Source of the DNA: Chloroflexota bacterium
GTDB lineage: Bacteria; Chloroflexota; UBA11872
DNA length: 64,000 nucleotides
NCBI GenBank assembly: GCA_022824865.1
Contig: JAJDZD010000013.1
Location: forward strand, 79,162-143,161
Reading direction: 5' to 3'
The notes beneath the pieces were generated by a model. The model did no database searches. It saw only the letters and a program-made list of their open reading frames with translations, and was not told the DNA's origin. The position numbers and the translations under genes were made by a program. This document shows, piece after piece, positions 5,887 through 48,235 of this stretch. Position 1 is the first letter of the stretch, and every line of letters begins with the position of its first letter.

Positions 5887-6035
5887 CGCATCCCCCTTGG
5901 GTTCCGCTGGAACACGCGCGATCGGACTCGCAGCTTATGCCGCCGAACACCTCGGCACTCAGGAAGGTTTGCGACGGTGCCCTGCGGGCACGGCGTTCAT
6001 CCTTGCAAATCGCAGACTCGACAGGGAGCAGGCAG

Positions 6036-6401
6036 ATGGCGAACCCCGTGGTGCACTGGGAAGTCAACGGTAAGGACGGCCCGGCGCTGCACAAGTTCTT
6101 CGGCGACCTCTTCGACTGGCAGGTCCTCACCGATAACCCAATGGGCTATGGCGTTGTCGGCGCAGACCCCGAGTGCGACAACAGCATCGGCGGCGGCATC
6201 GGCCAGACGTTCGACGGCTCGTCCGGCTTCGTCACTTTCTACGTAGAGGTTGTCGACGTCACGGCAACCCTGGAAAAGGCGGCCGGCCTGGGCCGCAAGA
6301 TCCTGATGCCCGAGACCGACGTCATGGAAAGCGTGACAATCGGCCACGTTGCCGATCCGAAAGGGCACATCATCGGCTTGCTGAAGAAGGAGTCGATGTA
6401 G
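6036..6401 (+). CDS. VOC superfamily protein
   Basis: The protein starts MANPVVHWEVNGKDGPALHKFF with an FFGDLFDWQV helix, the common opening of short single-domain VOC proteins annotated as glyoxalase-like. It ends VADPKGHIIGLLKK, the usual metal-ligand strand. A GGGAG run precedes ATG 6036, so I dropped the 33-codon extension in the ORF track. It has 121 residues and no clear operon partner. Confidence 0.8.
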   Translation: MANPVVHWEVNGKDGPALHKFFGDLFDWQVLTDNPMGYGVVGADPECDNSIGGGIGQTFDGSSGFVTFYVEVVDVTATLEKAAGLGRKILMPETDVMESVTIGHVADPKGHIIGLLKKESM

Positions 6402-6497
6402 GGGGTCTCGACGCCCTCCCGGCTTGCCTGCGAATGCGTCCGCGGCAGGGCCGTTGACGGCTAAACTGGCGTTCCGGCCGCAGGCTTGGAGGGGACC

Positions 6498-7475
6498 ATG
6501 GTTCGCGCAGCGTTCATAGGCGCAGGCCGCAGGGCCACCAGCGCGCACTATCCGGCGATCGACCGGGCCCATCGACGCGTCGAGCTGGCGGCGATGTGTG
6601 AGCTGGACGAGGATCGGCTCGCAACCACCGCCGACCAGTACGACGTCGAAGGCCGCTATAGCGATTTCCGGGAGATGCTGGAGCGGGAGACCCCCGAGGT
6701 TGTCTATGCAGTCACGAGGCCTCCCGACATTGCCGACATCGCGGTGGAAGTGCTGGCCTCCGGCGCGCATCTCTTCGTCGAGAAGCCGCCCGGTGTCGGA
6801 TCGGCGGATGCCGAGAAGATCGCTGCGGCGGCGGAGGCCAACAACCGCATCGTCTGCGTGGGTCTGCAGCGCCGTTGGACGCCGATGCTCCGCGCGGCGC
6901 GGGCGCGGGTCGAAGTCAACGGCCCTGTCATGTTGGCCAGCGCCGGCATGAGCAAGAACCTGATCGCAGACGACCAAGGCGGCCGTGTTCTCAACCGGCT
7001 CTACGAGCAGGACATTCACATGGTGGACTGGCTGCGCTGGCTCTGCGGCGGAACCTGGGACCAGGTGCTGACCCGCGGCGATGACACCTACACAGGCTGG
7101 ATGAACACCTACAACTCCATCATCCACTTCACCAATGGGGCCGTGGCGGTGCACTCGGTGACCGGCCACGCGGGGGCTCGCCACTACCGGATCGAGATGC
7201 ACGGCAACGGCGTCAGCGCCTATCTGTTGCCGCCCATCCACGGGCAGATCTACGCCGACGACCGACCGGAGCCGGAGATCATCGAAGGCCAGCCGATTCC
7301 TGGTCACCCCGGCGGAAATTTAGATGACGGAGTTGATGCGCTGCACGCCGATTTCCTGAACGCCATCGCGGAAGGCCGGCAACCGCTTACGAACATCCAT
7401 GACGTGATTCACTCGGTGCGGCTTCTGGAGGAGATCGGGCAGCTCGATCCGACCGGCCAGCCGCTGAAGACCTAG
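6498..7475 (+). CDS. Gfo/Idh/MocA family NAD(P)-dependent oxidoreductase
   Basis: An N-terminal Rossmann fold (AAFIGAGRRA) is followed by HLFVEKPPG, the family EKP motif with the catalytic-region lysine, and a C-terminal alpha/beta domain. The family oxidises or reduces sugars and inositols with NAD(P). GGAGGGG at 6488-6494 sits just before ATG 6498, favouring this start over 6486. Only nine bases separate it from the GH4 glycosidase, so both probably act on one imported glycoside or sugar acid. Confidence 0.87.
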   Translation: MVRAAFIGAGRRATSAHYPAIDRAHRRVELAAMCELDEDRLATTADQYDVEGRYSDFREMLERETPEVVYAVTRPPDIADIAVEVLASGAHLFVEKPPGVGSADAEKIAAAAEANNRIVCVGLQRRWTPMLRAARARVEVNGPVMLASAGMSKNLIADDQGGRVLNRLYEQDIHMVDWLRWLCGGTWDQVLTRGDDTYTGWMNTYNSIIHFTNGAVAVHSVTGHAGARHYRIEMHGNGVSAYLLPPIHGQIYADDRPEPEIIEGQPIPGHPGGNLDDGVDALHADFLNAIAEGRQPLTNIHDVIHSVRLLEEIGQLDPTGQPLKT

Positions 7476-7484
7476 GTTCGCGCC

Positions 7485-8963
7485 GTGGCCCTGAAGATCG
7501 CGGTGATCGGCGCCGGCAGCGTGGGCTTCACGCGCCGGCTCATGCGGGACATCCTGTCGGTTCCGGAGTTGCAGGACACGCACTTTGCGCTAACCGACAT
7601 CTCGCAACCCAACCTGGATCTGGTCACGCAGCTCTGCCAGAAGGACATCCGCACCAACAAGCTGCAGGCCCGAGTTTCGGCCACTACCGACCGCCGACAG
7701 GCCTTTCGCGATGCCGATTTCGTGATCTGCTGCGTGCGCGTGGGCGGATTAGACGCGTTCAAACTGGACGTAGAGATTCCGCTGAAGTACGGCGTGGACC
7801 AGTGCGTGGGCGACACGATCTGCGCCGGCGGGATCATGTATGCCCAGCGCACCATTCCTCAGTTGCTGGCCTTCGGCGAAGACATCCTCGACGTGGCCAA
7901 GCCGGATGCATTGCTGCTGAATTACGCCAACCCCATGGCCATGAACTGCTGGGCGCTGCTGGACCACGGCGTTAACGTGGTGGGGCTGTGCCACGGCATC
8001 GAGCACGGCTGGACCCAGATTGCCGAGGTGCTGGGCGCGGACCGACGCGAGGACGTTGACATCATCTGCGCCGGCATCAACCACCAGACCTGGTACACGC
8101 GCATCGAGCACCAGGGCCGCGAGATCGGCAGCGAGGAGTTGCTGGCGGCCTTCGAGGCGCATCCTAGATTCTCCAATACAGAGAAAGTGCGTATCGACGT
8201 GCTGCGGCGGTTCGGCTACTACTCAACCGAGTCGAACGGCCACCTGTCCGAGTACCTGCCGTGGTACCGGAAGCGTCCGGAGGAGATCGAACGCTGGATC
8301 GACCTTGCCAGTTGGGGAAACGGCGAGACCGGCGGGTATTTGAGGGTCAGTACCGAGAAGCGCAACTGGTTTGAGACGGACTTTCCCGAGTGGATGGCTG
8401 CCGACGATCCGCCGATCAGCACCGAGGACCGGTCCGACGAGCGCGGCAGCCGAATCATCGAGGCCCTGGAAACCGGCCGGCCCTACCGCGGGTTCTTCAA
8501 CGTCCGCAACGACGGCGCGATCAGCAATCTGGCCGACGACGCAATTGTGGAAGTGCCCGGGTACGTAGATGCGCTGGGTATTCACATCCCGAGAGTGGGC
8601 GATCTACCGCTGGCCTGCGCGGCCACGTGTACCGCCTCGATCGACGTGCAACGCATGGGTGCCCGCGCTGCCGCGGCCGGCGACTCCACGCTGCTGAAAC
8701 AGGCCATGCTGCACGACCCGCTGGTGGGAGCCGTGTGCGACCCGCCGGAGGTCTGGCGCATGGCGGACGAGATGCTGGTGGCGCAGGCCGAGTGGCTTCC
8801 GCAGTACGCGGACGAGATCCCCAAGGCAGTCGAGCGGCTGCAAGCACCGTCCGACGTGAAGACTCGGGACTGGCAAGGCGCCGCCCGAAAGCAGGTGCGC
8901 TCACTCGAGGAGATCCGGGAGGCCGACGAGAGACCTCCGATGCCGGTGAGCCAGCGGCGCTGA
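7485..8963 (+). CDS. melA: Glycoside hydrolase family 4 (alpha-galactosidase/6-phospho-glucosidase type)
   Basis: GH4 enzymes cleave glycosides by an NAD+- and Mn2+-dependent redox mechanism. Here the NAD loop is IGAGSVGFTR (about 8-17), a VGDTICAGG segment lies near 108-116, NYANPM near 146-151, the metal-binding CHGIEH near 169-174, and GINHQTWY near 198-204. The length, 492 residues, is a little above the family norm. The substrate (galactoside, glucuronide or other) is not decided by these motifs. GTG 7485 is used. The gene likely forms an operon with the preceding Gfo/Idh gene. Confidence 0.85.
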   Translation: MALKIAVIGAGSVGFTRRLMRDILSVPELQDTHFALTDISQPNLDLVTQLCQKDIRTNKLQARVSATTDRRQAFRDADFVICCVRVGGLDAFKLDVEIPLKYGVDQCVGDTICAGGIMYAQRTIPQLLAFGEDILDVAKPDALLLNYANPMAMNCWALLDHGVNVVGLCHGIEHGWTQIAEVLGADRREDVDIICAGINHQTWYTRIEHQGREIGSEELLAAFEAHPRFSNTEKVRIDVLRRFGYYSTESNGHLSEYLPWYRKRPEEIERWIDLASWGNGETGGYLRVSTEKRNWFETDFPEWMAADDPPISTEDRSDERGSRIIEALETGRPYRGFFNVRNDGAISNLADDAIVEVPGYVDALGIHIPRVGDLPLACAATCTASIDVQRMGARAAAAGDSTLLKQAMLHDPLVGAVCDPPEVWRMADEMLVAQAEWLPQYADEIPKAVERLQAPSDVKTRDWQGAARKQVRSLEEIREADERPPMPVSQRR

Positions 8964-41171: not shown

Positions 41172-41933
41172 TCAGCCGTCAAAACGATCCTGATACATTG
41201 CACACACTCGTTTATGCAGGTTCTCCATCTCGTGATGACCATCGCCTGCCTCTAGCGAACCGATATCGACTCTTGAGCAAACCCGAACGTCCATCCAAGA
41301 CATATAGTACGCATGTATTAGTACCTCGCGAATCTGTTCGTCTGGGTCGAAATGCTCACGAGTATTAGGATCGGCACTGTTGCGTAGAAACTCTTGATAG
41401 TGCTGCTCAATAATACTTACCTGACACGATTGGATCTCATCAACCGCGCGAAGGATCTTTCTGACCTGCTCTTCAAATGTGGTTGCGTGCCTGAAGTGAA
41501 CGTTGCCGTTTGCGTGTGCTATGCCATTACGATCTCGCACAAGCCTAGCGTATACTCCGATCTTTTCGTCGCCGCAGCCAATCAACCGTAGAATACGAAA
41601 GACGCTGGACTCGTTGACTTTGCTGAATGCGAACGGTGACCTGCCACGAAGTAACTGTCGCTCATCACCCTTCGAAAAACCAATAGTTGCATTGTTGAAT
41701 TCCGTTGGCAGGGAGTACCTGATCTGCCAAATCTTGAAGTAAACAAACACCATCATAACCATATGGTACGCCAGATACGCGAATTGGTACTTTAGGCTCT
41801 CGAGATTCGCCCAGAACGTATCCCAAAGAAAAGAGACGTACTCCCCCTCATCCGGGTTCATGAATGAGATCGGTAGAAACTCGCCGAGCGCAGCCGCCTC
41901 CTCTGCTAGCTCGTCCACATACAGACGGCTCAT
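41172..41933 (-). CDS. HEPN-domain protein coupled to the type I R-M system, putative RNase
   Basis: The key motif is RDRNGIAHANGNV, with Arg135, Asn136 and His140 in the RNxxxH arrangement of HEPN ribonucleases, in an all-helical context. An aromatic hydrophobic stretch (YHMVMMVFVYFKIWQIRY) lies before it. HEPN proteins are metal-independent RNases in toxin-antitoxin, abortive-infection and R-M associated systems. The start is ATG 41933, overlapping the HsdMS stop as ATGA, so it is translationally coupled. Low GC like the adjacent part of that gene. An accessory effector role is inference. Confidence 0.7.
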   Translation of the reverse strand: MSRLYVDELAEEAAALGEFLPISFMNPDEGEYVSFLWDTFWANLESLKYQFAYLAYHMVMMVFVYFKIWQIRYSLPTEFNNATIGFSKGDERQLLRGRSPFAFSKVNESSVFRILRLIGCGDEKIGVYARLVRDRNGIAHANGNVHFRHATTFEEQVRKILRAVDEIQSCQVSIIEQHYQEFLRNSADPNTREHFDPDEQIREVLIHAYYMSWMDVRVCSRVDIGSLEAGDGHHEMENLHKRVCAMYQDRFDG

Positions 41934-44482
41934 TGGTCTTCCCACACACGTGAGACAATATCTGAGACCTTCGCTTGAAAGTGCTGCACTAACTCGTAGT
42001 TCCCTCGCACATATGCCTGCTCCATCAAGACTTCGTCAACGATGGCTCGTTGAACATCAATGTCGGGTAGTGGAATCTCAAGATCGGAAAAGCGGGACTT
42101 GGAAAGCTCTCTAAATGTGCCCCCGCTTGCCCATGCAACCATAGTCGGAACCAGTCTCTTCAGTGCCAGAGCTACAAACTCCGGGAGGGCTCTATTGTGA
42201 TCTTCAATGATCACATTCTTAAACCCCTGATTGGTCGCCAATGGAACTCGGTTAATGGCGATTCTACCGATAGTCGCCCGGGACGACACTATTACTGATC
42301 CCACCGGCATAAGCTTTGCGGAAGACTCCTGTAACCCTAAATCAGTAATCGTTCGTCGAGTCGAAGTGATGTCACTGACTGTGTTACCGACCGGGATGTC
42401 CACAAGTGTTGCCCACGGCACACTGCCGTTCCAATATTCCGCGACGTTCGACCTAGGTGTCCCACCACCCTCAACACGGAACACATCCCGATCCCCAATG
42501 GACACAAGCGGCCACCGGCGATCAATAGGGACACGCGGATTGTATGCTGCGATGACTGCCCGCGCTCCATCGATCAGTGCTCCATACTCACTGATCTCTC
42601 GCATGATCTCTCTTTGCTCGTCTAGGGGTGGCAGCGGGACTGCAAATCGATAAAGCAATTTGGCGCTAAGGTTATTGATGTTTACTCCCGATATTTGGCT
42701 ACGAAGAAAGTCATTGAATCGACGGTCCCGAAGCTGATAAAATAGATAGTGAGGATCCACGACATCAGGATATGATCTCACGACACCCATAAATCCGCCA
42801 AAATAGTAGTCCATATCTTCAGCAATATACGCGACTTTCCCAATATGGTCCTTGCTTCCGCTAGCTAGGCAGATGAATATATCGAATTTTCGTAGCATTT
42901 TGTCTTGCGGAAGATTCACAGCACCAGAGATCCGCTTTACTTCTGACAAGTCAAGACTGGAAGCTTCAACGACGATGTTGTTCGCGCGAAGAATCCCGTG
43001 CCCACCTGAAGATACCTCGTCACCCCTCCGGTATGTAACACCCCGAACTAATCTGCAGATTTCACCGAGTGGCACTATTGGGTTTTTCCCACTCCTTTGA
43101 CTCGTATCTCGATACCGCTCCATACTGAGACTGTAGTCGTCCGTATCAGCTATACGGCTCTTGTCGACTATAAGGGCTGCGCCTTGATCGAGGAGGGCTG
43201 AGAGGAAGGGAGCGGGTTGTTCGTAATTCGAGCCAACGATGTGCGTAGGTATGGAGAGGTATTCTTTGAGCGCGCGGGTTGTCTGGGGCAGATCGTTTGA
43301 GTCGATTGTTCGGCGCTGGGCACCCAAGTCATAGCCGTCATTCTCAACCTTGAAGAAAGCGACTTGGCTTAAGGGTCTCGATGGGTCTCGACTCAGCATC
43401 AGAATCGAAGTTTTCACCCCGGAATAGGGTTGAAACAAACCTGCTGGCAACGAAACGACCGCCACCAGCAAGTTCTGTTCGATCAGGGCTTTGCGAAGAC
43501 TAGTGTGGGCCTTTTGGCTTTGGAAGACGATCCCTTCCGGAACTATGAGCCCGGCACGGCCTCCGTGTGCGAGGTGCTCGGCTATGTAGCCTGCAAATAG
43601 GACTTCGCTGCGACTGGACTGAACGGCAAATCGGTTGTGCGGCCGAATGCCTCCCCTTGGCGACATGAACGGTGGATTAGCAAGGATCACATCGAAGTGC
43701 TCGTTCCAGCGCTCGTCGCTGGTGAGCGTGTCGTATTCGTGGATATCGGGCTGGACGAAGCCGTGCAGATACATGTTCACCAGCGAAAGGCGCACCATGT
43801 CGGGCGAGATGTCGTACCCGGTGAAGCTCTCCGCCAGCCGGCTGCGTTCGTGGGGCGTGAGCGTGCTCTGGCCGTCCGCGTCGGTGTTGGCCCGCTGGAT
43901 GTGCTTGTAGGCGGAGATCAGAAAGCCTGCGGTGCCGCAGGCGGGGTCGAGAACGGTTTCGCCGAGCTGCGGGTTCACGATTTCAACGATGAAGTCGATG
44001 ATGTGACGAGGGGTGCGGAACTGTCCGGCATCGCCCTGGGCGCCCATGATGGAGAGCAGGTACTCGAAGGCATCGCCCAGGCGCTCCGAGTGGTCGTATT
44101 GGAACTGGTCGATGACCTTCAGAAACTCGCGCAGCGTCTCCGGGTCTCGGTAGGGGAGATAGGCGTTGTTGAAGATGTTGCGAAAAAGCGGTGGAAGGCC
44201 CGGATTCTCCGGAATCCGGTCGAGGGCTTCAGCGTAGAGGTTGAGGGTTTCGAAGCCGCCGAGTCCCGAGCGCAGCAGCTTGGGCCAGGCGTAACGTTCG
44301 AAGTCGTTCACAAAGAAGCTGCGCTGGCCGCCAAGCTCCTCGCCTCGCGCCTCGATGTCCCACATGAACTTGTAGATCAGCGCAATGGTGATCTGCTCGA
44401 CCTGCGACTTGGGGTCGGGGACCTTGCCCACGAGAATGTCGCGGGCGGTGTCGATTCGGCGGCGGGTTTCGACGTCTAGCAT
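41930..44482 (-). CDS. hsdM: Type I restriction-modification fusion: HsdM methyltransferase plus HsdS specificity domains
   Basis: Residues 1-440 are an N6-adenine methyltransferase of type I systems: helical N-domain, motif I DPACGTAGFL (179-188) and motif IV NPPF (269-272). From about residue 475 there are two HsdS target-recognition half-repeats, each with its coiled-coil end (PLGEICRLVRGVTYRRGDE ... PLPPLDEQREIM, then VSIGDRDVFRVEGGGTPRS ... IPLPDIDVQRAIVDEV). M and S are usually separate genes, so one polypeptide here would both recognise and modify DNA. The first third of the gene is GC-rich and the rest distinctly more AT-rich, with the break near 43630. HsdR is encoded upstream at 45701-48235. 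Confidence 0.85.
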   Translation of the reverse strand: MLDVETRRRIDTARDILVGKVPDPKSQVEQITIALIYKFMWDIEARGEELGGQRSFFVNDFERYAWPKLLRSGLGGFETLNLYAEALDRIPENPGLPPLFRNIFNNAYLPYRDPETLREFLKVIDQFQYDHSERLGDAFEYLLSIMGAQGDAGQFRTPRHIIDFIVEIVNPQLGETVLDPACGTAGFLISAYKHIQRANTDADGQSTLTPHERSRLAESFTGYDISPDMVRLSLVNMYLHGFVQPDIHEYDTLTSDERWNEHFDVILANPPFMSPRGGIRPHNRFAVQSSRSEVLFAGYIAEHLAHGGRAGLIVPEGIVFQSQKAHTSLRKALIEQNLLVAVVSLPAGLFQPYSGVKTSILMLSRDPSRPLSQVAFFKVENDGYDLGAQRRTIDSNDLPQTTRALKEYLSIPTHIVGSNYEQPAPFLSALLDQGAALIVDKSRIADTDDYSLSMERYRDTSQRSGKNPIVPLGEICRLVRGVTYRRGDEVSSGGHGILRANNIVVEASSLDLSEVKRISGAVNLPQDKMLRKFDIFICLASGSKDHIGKVAYIAEDMDYYFGGFMGVVRSYPDVVDPHYLFYQLRDRRFNDFLRSQISGVNINNLSAKLLYRFAVPLPPLDEQREIMREISEYGALIDGARAVIAAYNPRVPIDRRWPLVSIGDRDVFRVEGGGTPRSNVAEYWNGSVPWATLVDIPVGNTVSDITSTRRTITDLGLQESSAKLMPVGSVIVSSRATIGRIAINRVPLATNQGFKNVIIEDHNRALPEFVALALKRLVPTMVAWASGGTFRELSKSRFSDLEIPLPDIDVQRAIVDEVLMEQAYVRGNYELVQHFQAKVSDIVSRVWEDQ

Positions 44483-44503: not shown

Positions 44504-44635
44504 TCCACGAAGGGCACGAAGTACACGAAGTGGAAGAGCGAAGGACGGAAAAGTAAAGAGAATGGTCCGCGAGATCTTGCACTTAGACACGTCAGTGAGT
44601 CCTGTTTGTCGCCCTTCGTGAACTTCGTTGATCAA
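44504..44635. repeat. Left repeat arm flanking the GxxExxY gene
   Basis: TCCACGAAGGGCACGAAG (44504-44521) continues as TACACGAAGTGG; an inverted counterpart, CCCTTCGTGAACTTCG, starts at about 44612 and runs to the stop codon of the GxxExxY gene. A matching pair is found at the other side of that gene (45017-45100). Confidence 0.6.
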
Positions 44636-45009
44636 TTGACGAACCGCTTCCATTCGAGTTTGCCGTGGCTGCCGAAGTTTAGCAGGATGCCCAGCTTGAA
44701 TCCGGTGGCCTTCAAGTAGTTGAGCGTCTGGGCTTCTTCGTTGCCGGTGAGGCGGCTAAGAGTCTTGATCTCGACGATCACTTGGTCATAGCAAACCAGA
44801 TCAGCAAAGTAGTCTCTTTTCAGCAGTTGCTCCTTGTAGCGGACTCGAATCTGCGCCTGTGCCTGGAACGGGATGTCTCTTGCCGCAAGCTCAATCTCCA
44901 TTGCTTCCTGGTACACCGCCTCGAGAAAACCCGGGCCGAGTTCACGGTGCACCTCAATAGCGGCGCCCACGATGGCGTAGGACTCTTCGCCTAGGATTAT
45001 TCCGTCCAT
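44632..45009 (-). CDS. GxxExxY family protein (PD-(D/E)XK-like fold)
   Basis: The name-giving motif is GPGFLEAVYQEAM. Preceding it is IVGAAIEVHRELG, and later VRYKEQLLKRDYFADLVCYDQVIVEIKTL and GFKLGILLNFG, the usual family blocks. The E-V-E-I-K-like strand (VIVEIK) resembles a PD-(D/E)XK nuclease core, but activity is not established. The 125-residue length is normal. Such genes are often found as isolated cassettes near repeats, as here; it interrupts the R-M operon between hsdMS and hsdR. Confidence 0.82.
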   Translation of the reverse strand: MDGIILGEESYAIVGAAIEVHRELGPGFLEAVYQEAMEIELAARDIPFQAQAQIRVRYKEQLLKRDYFADLVCYDQVIVEIKTLSRLTGNEEAQTLNYLKATGFKLGILLNFGSHGKLEWKRFVN

Positions 45010-45125: not shown

Positions 45126-45371
45126 TCACGCGGGAATCTGGAACGAGCGACCCAGGGGATGGAACTCGTCGACCTCCTGGTTGGCGAGCTTGGCGCGAAT
45201 CTGCTCGAAGCGGCTGATCGTGGCGCGCGAGTAGAGCCGCTCGCCGCAGCGCAGGCAAACATCGGCGCGGACCTTCACTGTCGCCAGGTTGACGCCGCCG
45301 CGCAAGAGTTTTTCGACGTCCTTCTCGCTCAGATCGCCGCCACAGACCGGACACTTGCCAAAGCGCTGCAT
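45126..45371 (-). CDS. YgiT-type zinc-finger protein (MqsA-like, antitoxin candidate)
   Basis: An 81-residue protein with two CxxC knuckles, CPVCGG near the start and CLRCGE in the middle, separated by VNLATVKVRAD. This is the N-terminal zinc domain of MqsA antitoxins without the helix-turn-helix part. It overlaps the preceding DUF4258 gene by one base. The pair is a common small toxin-antitoxin-like unit. Confidence 0.82.
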   Translation of the reverse strand: MQRFGKCPVCGGDLSEKDVEKLLRGGVNLATVKVRADVCLRCGERLYSRATISRFEQIRAKLANQEVDEFHPLGRSFQIPA

Positions 45372-45688
45372 TACCTCGGTCTCCTTGTTCGCCAGTTCAG
45401 CCAGCGTTCCGGATCAGGCCGGTAGACCGTAATCAGAGCCGCCCACCCGGTGTCAGAATTATATGCCCAGACGCTGTGGATCGGATCGTCGCCAGGCGTG
45501 CCCCCGTAGATCAGACAGCTCGGAAATGGCCGGTCGTCAGGGTATTCCTCAATTACTTCACCGTGGAGCACACTTGCGAACACCTCGTCGAACGAAAGGT
45601 GATCCGCCTGAGCTTCTTCGTCAGCGTGGTCGGTAATGCGTACATGATCATGGCGAATCGCCGCAATGATCGCCGCCATGAAGTCCAC
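45371..45688 (-). CDS. DUF4258 protein, toxin candidate
   Basis: A 105-residue protein with HVRITDHADEEAQADHLSFDEVFASVLHGEVIEEYPDDRPFPSCLIYG and a C-terminal VWAYNSDTGWAALITVYRPDP strand pair. DUF4258 proteins have a RelE/MqsR-like small fold and usually pair with a YgiT zinc-finger protein, as here. It lies 13 bases downstream of the hsdR stop on the same strand, so it may be co-transcribed with the R-M genes. Confidence 0.8.
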   Translation of the reverse strand: MDFMAAIIAAIRHDHVRITDHADEEAQADHLSFDEVFASVLHGEVIEEYPDDRPFPSCLIYGGTPGDDPIHSVWAYNSDTGWAALITVYRPDPERWLNWRTRRPR

Positions 45689-45700
45689 GACGAAGACTAG

Positions 45701-48235
45701 CTAGGCAATGAACTGGTTGATCGAGACGTAGTCCTTGATGTACTCGGGGATGAGAGTGCGGTATTCGTCGGGGAGCCTGATGAAGTCATTGAGCGTGAAG
45801 GTCGGGTTGGTGTCCAGGTCAGTGTACTTTTTGTCCTCGATGATTCGCCGCGTTCGTTCGTCGGCGGCATAGGCCTTGAAATAGCTGCGCAGCGCCGGCA
45901 AGGCGGCCGGCTCGCCGGGCTGACGATCGACAATGAACTTGTCAAACTCCTCGTCCAGCAACTCATCCAAAGATTTGAAGCGCTGAATGCGCCCAAAGGC
46001 GCGCTCCAAAATCTCGCGCAGTGAGATACGGCGGTCTGCATCGACGGCTTTGCGGAGTCTCGCCAGGTTGAAGTAGTCCTCGGGCTTGTCGAAGTGGTTG
46101 CGGCTGACGTGATCGACGGCCAGGTCCCACTGTTCAGCTTCCACGGCCTCGGCGACGACCGGATCCTCTCTGACCCTGTCCGCAAACCGTTCGAAGAGCA
46201 TCCGGTCGATCTTCATCCCCTGAAAGCCGATAGTCTCCTGACGAATGCTGGCCAGGGTGTCGCCACCAGCGTGTTCATACGCGCCCACGGTCTCAACTGT
46301 GTCCGCCTCGCCGCCGTTTTCGAAATTGACAGAAGTGGCGGGCAGCTTCAGTACCTCGTCGTAGTTGAAGTCCTCCTCGAAATACTCGTTGTTGCCGAAG
46401 AAGTCGAAGAGCTTGAACGCATTCTTCTCCGGGCGTCTGATGCCCTCGGCCAGATCCTTGTCGAGCAGATCGTCCCGAAAGTCATGCAGACGCGTGCCCC
46501 GGCCCTTGATCTGGATGAAGTCGGTGGGTGAGAAGACTGGACGGAACAAGCCGAGGTTCAGGATGTCCGGACAGTCGTAGCCGGTGGTCATCATGCCGAC
46601 GGTGACGCAGACGCGAGCCTTGCTGGTTCGGTAACCCGCTACCGCGTCGCTGTAGCCCAGAAGGTGATTGTTGGCGAAGTTGACGGTGAACCGCTGGGCG
46701 TCCGCCACGTGCGAGGTGACCTGCACGGCAAAGTCGGACTGGTAGTGACCCGGAAACATGTGGTCGGCAATCTCGTTAAGCGTCTGCGTCAACCGGGCGG
46801 CGTGATCCTGGCTGACGGCAAAGACGATGGACTTGCCAATCTCGCCGCTGACCGGATCGCGGAGCGCGTGTTCCAGAAAGGTCTTGCAGAACAGCTCGTT
46901 GGTCGCCTTGGAGAAGAAGCGCTTCTCGTACTCGCGCTGCGTGAAGGCCTCCTCGTGGTCTTCGCCTAAATCGTCGCTGAACTGGGCGATGAAGCCCTCT
47001 TCCGACAGGAGTTGGGTCGTCACTCCGGTGCGCGCGTCGACAACGGTGGGGTTGATGAGGATGCCGTCCTTGACTCCGTCCAGCAGCGAATACCGGAAGG
47101 TCGGCTGACCGCTCTCGCAGCCGAACGTGCGGTAGGTGTCGAGGAGTTGCCGACGCTCCGCCTCGCGAGGATCGCGAACGCCCGGGCCGAGTTCATCGAA
47201 GCCGCGCAGATAGTTGCGCGGAGTGGCAGTGAGTCCAAGCTTGTAGCCGACGAAGTGCTCGAACAGGGCGCGGGCGTTGCCGCCGATGGAGCGGTGGGCC
47301 TCGTCGGAAATGACCAAATCAAAGTCGGTTGCCGCAAGCCGCCGGTACTTGTTGTCGAACAGCAGCGACTGCACGGTGCTGACCACGATCTCGGCCGACC
47401 GCCAGTCGGTGCGGTTCTCCTTGTAGACGACCGTTCGGTAGTCACTGGATAGCAACCCCGTGAACACCTTGCGGGCCTGTTCCTCCAGTTCCAGCCGGTC
47501 CACGAGGAATAGAACGCGGCGGGCGTTTGCGGTCCGAAGGAACAGCTTGATGACCGCGGCCGCGGTGAGCGTCTTGCCGGTCCCAGTGGCCATCTCGAAA
47601 AGAAACCGGTCTGCGCCATCTCGCACCGCCCGCTGGAGTGCGTGAACCGCTCGCAACTGGTACGGACGCAGAAAGCGCAGGCCGTTAGCCCTGACGAAGT
47701 CAGCGCGCTCGTCCTTATTGCGCCACGCGGCCTCCGACGCGTAGTTGGGCCGCTGGGTCAGCACGATGTAGTCCTCGTCCACGCGCTGGTCCGCCAGACG
47801 CTTTGGATTCGGCACGAACTGCTTGTGGACGGCAATGGAGTCTGGTGGAGGGAAGACGGCGATGACCCTGGGATTGCCGTGCTCGAGGTCCCAAAGGAAG
47901 TGCAAATTGCCGTTGGAGAGAATGACGAAACGGCAATTCTGGGAGCGGGCGTACTTGCGCGCCTGCTCCTTGCCGGAAAGCGGGTGCTTGGCTTCGGCCT
48001 TGGCTTCCAGCACGACAAGGGGAAAGCCGCTCGCGTCCAGCAGCAGAAAGTCGACTACGCCACGCTTGGTTTTGATGTGCTCGAAGTTGTCGCCCATGGC
48101 GTCCAGGTCACTGGGCTCGAGGTTGACGCCGACTTCAAGCTGGATGTTGGCGGGACCTTCTGGCCCGTCGAAGAACCGCCAGCCGGCCTTTTCGAGCAGC
48201 TTGTTGATCTTGATTCGGGCGGATGCTTCGTTCAT
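45701..48235 (-). CDS. hsdR: Type I restriction endonuclease subunit R
   Basis: The 844-residue protein has the N-terminal PD-(D/E)XK nuclease (DFLLLDASGFPLVVLEAKAEAKHP), a superfamily 2 helicase/translocase with Walker A ATGTGKTLTA and DEAH box (ISDEAHRSIGG), and a second RecA-like domain (VGMMTTGYDCPDILNLGLFRP). The C-terminus is of the EcoEI R type. It translocates DNA and cuts at a distance when unmodified sites are met, together with the HsdM-S fusion protein. GC content is like that of the N-terminal part of hsdM. Confidence 0.92.
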   Translation of the reverse strand: MNEASARIKINKLLEKAGWRFFDGPEGPANIQLEVGVNLEPSDLDAMGDNFEHIKTKRGVVDFLLLDASGFPLVVLEAKAEAKHPLSGKEQARKYARSQNCRFVILSNGNLHFLWDLEHGNPRVIAVFPPPDSIAVHKQFVPNPKRLADQRVDEDYIVLTQRPNYASEAAWRNKDERADFVRANGLRFLRPYQLRAVHALQRAVRDGADRFLFEMATGTGKTLTAAAVIKLFLRTANARRVLFLVDRLELEEQARKVFTGLLSSDYRTVVYKENRTDWRSAEIVVSTVQSLLFDNKYRRLAATDFDLVISDEAHRSIGGNARALFEHFVGYKLGLTATPRNYLRGFDELGPGVRDPREAERRQLLDTYRTFGCESGQPTFRYSLLDGVKDGILINPTVVDARTGVTTQLLSEEGFIAQFSDDLGEDHEEAFTQREYEKRFFSKATNELFCKTFLEHALRDPVSGEIGKSIVFAVSQDHAARLTQTLNEIADHMFPGHYQSDFAVQVTSHVADAQRFTVNFANNHLLGYSDAVAGYRTSKARVCVTVGMMTTGYDCPDILNLGLFRPVFSPTDFIQIKGRGTRLHDFRDDLLDKDLAEGIRRPEKNAFKLFDFFGNNEYFEEDFNYDEVLKLPATSVNFENGGEADTVETVGAYEHAGGDTLASIRQETIGFQGMKIDRMLFERFADRVREDPVVAEAVEAEQWDLAVDHVSRNHFDKPEDYFNLARLRKAVDADRRISLREILERAFGRIQRFKSLDELLDEEFDKFIVDRQPGEPAALPALRSYFKAYAADERTRRIIEDKKYTDLDTNPTFTLNDFIRLPDEYRTLIPEYIKDYVSINQFIA

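Follow-up and report, generated by a model that had tools for sequence, protein, structure and literature searches.

A conserved HEPN RNase-like gene behind hsdMS encodes a candidate second-line effector of a type I-like restriction-modification operon

A gene for a HEPN RNase-like protein directly follows a fused hsdM-hsdS (hsdMS) gene in the DNA analyzed here, a stretch of 64,000 nucleotides from a Chloroflexota bacterium that we refer to as the window. Because the same gene pair recurs in distant bacteria, the HEPN protein probably serves the restriction system as an integral backup weapon. In particular, the reading that we favor, with moderate confidence, is that the protein is an abortive-infection RNase that would be held silent by the restriction-modification (R-M) complex of a mobile type I-like operon and would be freed or switched on when that complex is blocked. 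That R-M-linked HEPN proteins serve as second-line or failsafe effectors is a general proposal made in 2013 (PMC3710099), and such a mechanism is a reasonable one for the protein studied here.

The operon in the window

The original prediction was of a fused HsdM-HsdS gene followed by a HEPN gene with an ATGA overlap, and open reading frames with this arrangement are indeed present, the ATG of the HEPN gene and the TGA of hsdMS sharing bases. The unit extends past 41172-44482 to include hsdR (48235..45701). Along the minus strand, the unit runs from hsdR through the DUF4258 and YgiT-type genes and the GxxExxY gene to hsdMS and the HEPN gene:

45701..48235, minus strand: hsdR, with which the operon begins; its 844-aa product has an HSDR_N-type endonuclease domain and an SF2 helicase
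45371..45688, minus strand: DUF4258 protein, paired with the YgiT-type gene and, judged by its position, toxin-like
45126..45371, minus strand: YgiT/MqsA-type zinc-finger protein, antitoxin-like, between hsdR and hsdMS
44632..45009, minus strand: GxxExxY protein (PDDEXK_3), between hsdR and hsdMS
41930..44482, minus strand: fused HsdM-HsdS gene; the 850-aa product joins an N6 methylase domain to two target-recognition halves
41172..41933, minus strand: gene for the HEPN RNase-like protein of 253 aa, with the motif R135-N136-x3-H140

All of the type I R-M functions are present in this operon (HSDR_N_2, ResIII, N6_Mtase and two Methylase_S matches), with M and S forming one chain. HsdMS matched N6_Mtase at 1.6e-51 and Methylase_S at 2.7e-30, the latter over two stretches, and its methylase motifs DPACGTAG and NPPF are intact. 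(Note that the HEPN protein is 253 aa long when counted from the ATG and 257 aa long from an upstream GTG, the start given by the ORF lister.) The DUF4258, YgiT-type and GxxExxY genes occur between hsdR and hsdMS in the window only and in 0 related loci; because the related HsdR genes lie directly before hsdMS, the three small genes of the window are local insertions. The GxxExxY gene is probably a later insertion outside the core, and the YgiT-type and DUF4258 genes, a toxin-antitoxin-like pair, also lie outside it.

Within the class to which the window belongs, the HEPN gene was found in 1 of 41 genomes and was absent from the 40 others, an occurrence that suggests mobility. The GC content of the HEPN gene is 49%, compared with 63% for the window.

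The HEPN protein and its candidate active site

Taken alone, the RNGIAH motif is weak evidence for a HEPN protein, given that RN...H arises by chance in 3.4% of shuffled versions of the window protein and Rx4-6H in 91% of them. The fit of this motif to RNxxxH that had been predicted (R135-N136-G-I-A-H140, in the same numbering) is nevertheless real because the motif is conserved: all 35 aligned homologues have R135 and H140, and 34 of them keep N136. R135 is the sole invariant residue among the 20 arginines of the protein, the next best being kept in 18 of 35, and of its 10 histidines only H57 and H140 are invariant. The other polar residues invariant in all 35 homologues are N43, H57, E108 and E203. 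An N-terminal histidine has been proposed for the active sites of AbiV and AF0298, and H57 may likewise contribute to the active site here. The protein has the pattern that marks catalytic-type HEPN domains, namely Rx4-6H with a polar residue after the arginine. Counting against the reading that we favor is the acidic pI of the family (4.6-5.5), which is atypical for a general RNA binder.

In profile searches, HEPN_RiboL-PSP of Pfam was matched by 30 of the 35 homologues (best 6.9e-6) and HEPN_Swt1 or HEPN_MAE_28990 by some of them; the window protein alone (P0001) gave no significant Pfam HEPN match. Matches of homologues to the CARF-HEPN and HamB models of PADLOC were weak, and we take them as hints only. 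A PDB sequence search with the window protein was empty, a PHROGs search found nothing, and the sole PDB match of the HEPN profile, ribosomal S3Ae (0.04), was judged to be due to chance.

The AlphaFold model (pLDDT 92 for the whole protein and 91 for the core) predicts an all-helical protein with a HEPN core at approximately residues 16-190 and a C-terminal helical part. In this model the motif lies at the end of helix 122-139, where a loop starts, which is its placement in HEPN domains (PMC3710099); in catalytic-type HEPN folds this is the end of helix 3. When the core model was compared with the PDB, the first 13 matches listed were nearly all HEPN proteins (Z 7.9-4.8), among them AF_0298, SO_3166, HepT, MtlR and Csm6, with 2hsb at Z 7.9, 5yep at 7.1, 1wwp and 7bxo at 7.0 and 4nqf at 6.5; helical bundles may give fortuitous Z scores of up to ~13, and what counts is how coherent the match list is. 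With the model of all 253 aa, Foldseek found no match that was significant, and its VIA list was headed by GPCRs, with the HEPN protein 1wwp fifth, which trimming to the core cured. Thus the invariant R135 and H140, the Pfam matches of 30 of 35 homologues, though not of the window protein itself, and the PDB matches of the core, the model of which shows a HEPN fold, support the assignment of the protein as HEPN.

Recurrence of the gene pair and co-inheritance with the enzyme core

Using tblastn, we found relatives of the HEPN protein on a Paracoccus plasmid (47.6% identity) and on a scaffold from the gut that is catalogued as phage (27%). Single-sequence scans with the window protein found no relatives in genome contigs or viral contigs; a search with an alignment of the window protein and these two relatives found 34 loci in genome contigs and 1 in viral contigs. 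In total ~42 loci from several phyla were collected (Proteobacteria, Planctomycetota, Acidobacteria, Actinomycetes and Clostridia, with single contigs assigned to other groups; the assignment of short metagenome contigs, L017 and L037, is uncertain). The original prediction had proposed looking for HEPN genes next to hsdM/hsdS in other genomes, and these loci reveal a neighborhood that is conserved across phyla and across two R-M architectures. Architecture A, hsdR-hsdMS-HEPN, occurs in Alpha- and Gammaproteobacteria, Planctomycetota, Acidobacteria, Actinomycetes and others; its HsdR homologues stand directly before hsdMS and, where complete, are 56-69% identical to the window HsdR. Architecture B, found in Clostridia and others, has a single-chain gene for PD-(D/E)XK, N6 methylase (NMPY motif) and S regions, followed by the HEPN gene, and its loci gave no match to the window HsdR. 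Wherever the junction could be measured in the first collections (34 of 34), the HEPN start falls at -3 to +10, counted in bases from the end of the hsdMS-type stop codon; 12 junctions have the ATGA overlap and the others start at approximately +2 to +10.

Sets of genomes from single orders gave a similar picture, although from few positives. The HEPN gene and HsdR (E<=1e-100) co-occurred in the same 2 of 397 genomes of one alphaproteobacterial order (few positives), and both strong single-chain matches in a Clostridia order carry HEPN (again few). HEPN was present in 5 of 394 genomes of another set. Among the few HsdR matches in two more orders, the intact loci have HEPN, except for L068, which has a 948-aa TrlF-like gene in its place. 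(Note that L059, L062 and L066, all with HEPN, are the same loci as L012, L014 and L009, respectively; L067 has HEPN and a broken hsdR, and L069 and L070 are decayed.)

Several individual loci have features of their own. L043 holds a HEPN remnant (1501-2241) that is 5'-truncated and has an in-frame stop, with no adjoining MS gene and with an integrase fragment upstream. The HEPN gene of L036 (~7980-8763) is apparently frameshifted beside an intact single-chain MS gene, and the viral contig L056 carries a single-chain PD-(D/E)XK-M-S relative (5941-8313; 47%) without HEPN, followed by an antirepressor-like gene. In L066 (4320-5369; Loktanella), the HEPN stop shares 4 bases with a further gene of 349 aa. 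In L003, genes that are RhuM-like by eye (2-1006 and 7890-8666) lie on either side of the single-chain R-M-S gene and HEPN; RhuM has been described near PrrC-type R-M loci (PMC3710099).

The patchy occurrence of HEPN (2 of 397 and 5 of 394 genomes, and none of the 40 other genomes in the class to which the window belongs), its carriage on a plasmid and the position of a candidate toxin beside its putative silencer would each fit a HEPN-HsdMS pair that is chiefly an addiction module, in which loss of the R-M locus would leave HEPN to kill the cell, thereby stabilizing the mobile unit, and in which phage defense would be secondary. R-M systems, however, can already be addictive by themselves, and the accessory genes found behind hsdMS are anti-phage genes. 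We consider this explanation unlikely.

Across 15 architecture-A loci, the pairwise identity of HEPN correlated with that of M (r = 0.88; Mantel, 0 of 9,999 permutations) and with that of HsdR (r = 0.92), and the mean identity of the S parts was 32%. In several pairs of loci, M and HEPN are ~90% identical and S just 23-37%. HEPN identity thus tracks M and R while S is swapped, and HEPN is tied to the enzyme core rather than to the recognized sequence. Moreover, dN/dS values of 0.06-0.14 among alphaproteobacterial copies reveal purifying selection on HEPN.

Strict co-inheritance with M and R, together with the near-constant presence of HEPN beside hsdMS or the single-chain R-M-S gene, might also be expected of an obligatory structural or allosteric subunit that contributes to assembly or to control of DNA translocation and has no role as a defense RNase. 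The invariant catalytic residues argue otherwise, as do the existence of the hsdR-hsdMS platform without HEPN but with a TrlF-type gene, the single-chain relative without HEPN in L056 and the intact MS gene that accompanies a frameshifted HEPN in L036. A purely structural subunit is therefore rather unlikely. The same tight co-evolution, and a short constant junction retained across two R-M architectures, are difficult to reconcile with an independent Abi RNase that would sense phage directly, sharing the operon for regulation and mobility without contacting the R-M proteins. Many defense genes do cluster without physical interaction, and L014, L050 and L051 have other genes or a gap between MS and HEPN; nonetheless, we regard an independent RNase as improbable.

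For a HEPN RNase silenced by the R-M complex, the reading that we favor, we infer complex formation, silencing, a trigger, cleavage of an RNA target and suicide. HsdR-HsdMS would methylate self DNA and cut unmodified phage DNA. Translation of HEPN would directly follow that of HsdMS, being coupled or closely linked to it, and the protein would bind a conserved part of the complex (M, or a conserved S-region) that keeps it inactive. If an anti-restriction protein blocked the complex, if the complex became locked on phage DNA, or if restriction were overwhelmed, HEPN would be released or switched on, RNA would be cut through R135 and H140, probably with N136 and perhaps with H57, and growth would stop before phage release. 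Counting against this mechanism, the HEPN protein was found to have no sensor or ATPase domain that would explain switching.

Known systems and the position behind hsdMS

EcoprrI, a type Ic R-M system, keeps the anticodon nuclease PrrC silent, and Stp of phage T4 activates it (PMC2610378). The parallel with PrrC that was originally drawn stands as a functional likeness: in each case the gene for an RNase of the HEPN superfamily, in our case a putative RNase and putative latent second-line effector, lies in a type I R-M locus (PMC3710099, PMC2610378), here with hsdR and hsdMS upstream of HEPN. The likeness does not extend to the proteins themselves. PrrC carries an ABC ATPase domain at its N terminus, whereas the HEPN protein has 253 aa and no ATPase match in Pfam, NCBIfam or PADLOC. 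The putative triad of PrrC, Arg320-Glu324-His356 (PMC2610378), is also spaced differently; the HEPN protein has a compact R-N-x3-H site with no Glu at R135+4 (position 139 is Ala), and its gene is coupled to a fused hsdMS.

The R-M-linked HEPN families of Anantharaman et al. (2013), which comprise at least 16 clades (AbiU2, AbiJ solos, ApeA, Ymh, DUF4145 and others; PMC3710099), resemble the family described here in that their genes lie inside R-M operons and have the same proposed failsafe role. They differ in that no Pfam or NCBIfam model is significant for the window protein, the nearest being HEPN_RiboL-PSP by way of the homologues, although an unnamed listing in the additional files of that paper is possible. 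The DUF499/Hma system (BREX-related type-1 BR) likewise pairs a HEPN backup RNase with methyltransferase-helicase defense (PMC12839542), but there HEPN is fused to an AAA ATPase, whereas here it stands alone and the only core ATPase is the HsdR helicase. Two further candidates were rejected. No MNT match was found among the operon proteins scanned, as a type II HEPN-MNT toxin-antitoxin pair would have, and for MADS, HsdMS scored 96.5 against a MAD2 cut-off of 720 and 32 against a MAD5 cut-off of 400, with only MAD3 and MAD4 occurring, in L014.

No description of this HEPN family was found in the literature searched, which included few subscription journals, and the family appears to be unnamed in Pfam, NCBIfam, PADLOC and that literature. 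Whereas the idea is known, what appears to be new is the stand-alone HEPN protein, its fixed coupling to hsdMS, the two-gene form with a single-chain R-M-S protein and the exchange with a TrlF-type gene.

On plasmids of E. coli and other enterobacteria, the nearest hsdR (62.6% identical) is followed by hsdMS and then, in the place of HEPN, by a gene for a TrlF-family ATPase. This TrlF/Ppl-like protein, which passed the score cut-off for TrlF and fell short of that for the anti-phage protein Ppl, shares with HEPN its position behind hsdR and hsdMS but is a 951-aa AAA-like ATPase with no detected relation to HEPN. In L057 (8986-16534; E. coli plasmid pL37-4) the hsdR-hsdMS-TrlF/Ppl-like operon lies beside the IncF genes finO and repA. 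Of 5,426 E. coli complete genomes, 80 have near-identical copies of the TrlF-form locus, which are carried by plasmids; it is the sole form of the queried locus there, and no further effector swap at that locus was found among these genomes.

Elsewhere, genes are added to HEPN rather than replacing it. MAD3 and MAD4 homologues, above cut-offs, lie between hsdMS and HEPN in L014 (6035-7938), suggesting that parts of MADS are exchangeable modules. In L050 (9367-14646), a gene with an AbiTii domain precedes a HEPN gene whose product bears zinc ribbons at its C terminus, and a gene for a SIR2-domain protein of 1014 aa (the C-terminal part of which looks PIWI-like by eye) comes after it, and in L051 (8081-12585) a zinc-ribbon HEPN lies 385 bases past hsdMS, beside HamA and a helicase (Hachiman-like). 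A tentative extension, to which we give rather less than even weight, is that hsdR-hsdMS might serve generally as a sensor platform whose effector slot can be refilled, by HEPN in most lineages and by a TrlF/Ppl-like ATPase elsewhere, with MAD3-MAD4, AbiTii or SIR2 sometimes added; the single-chain PD-(D/E)XK-M-S protein with HEPN might then be a two-protein minimal version.

Many R-M-linked HEPN families have been put forward as suicidal RNases coupled to restriction, yet beyond E. coli PrrC none had been characterized according to a 2022 paper (PMC9296519). The HEPN family is short, has no ATPase domain and has a near-fixed junction and a two-gene form, so that silencing and release are testable with few parts; the TrlF-type gene at the same position on E. 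coli plasmids provides another case, one that could be tested in a laboratory host. If hsdR-hsdMS is indeed such a platform, then failure of restriction would be converted into different cell-stopping outputs through the swap of one downstream gene.
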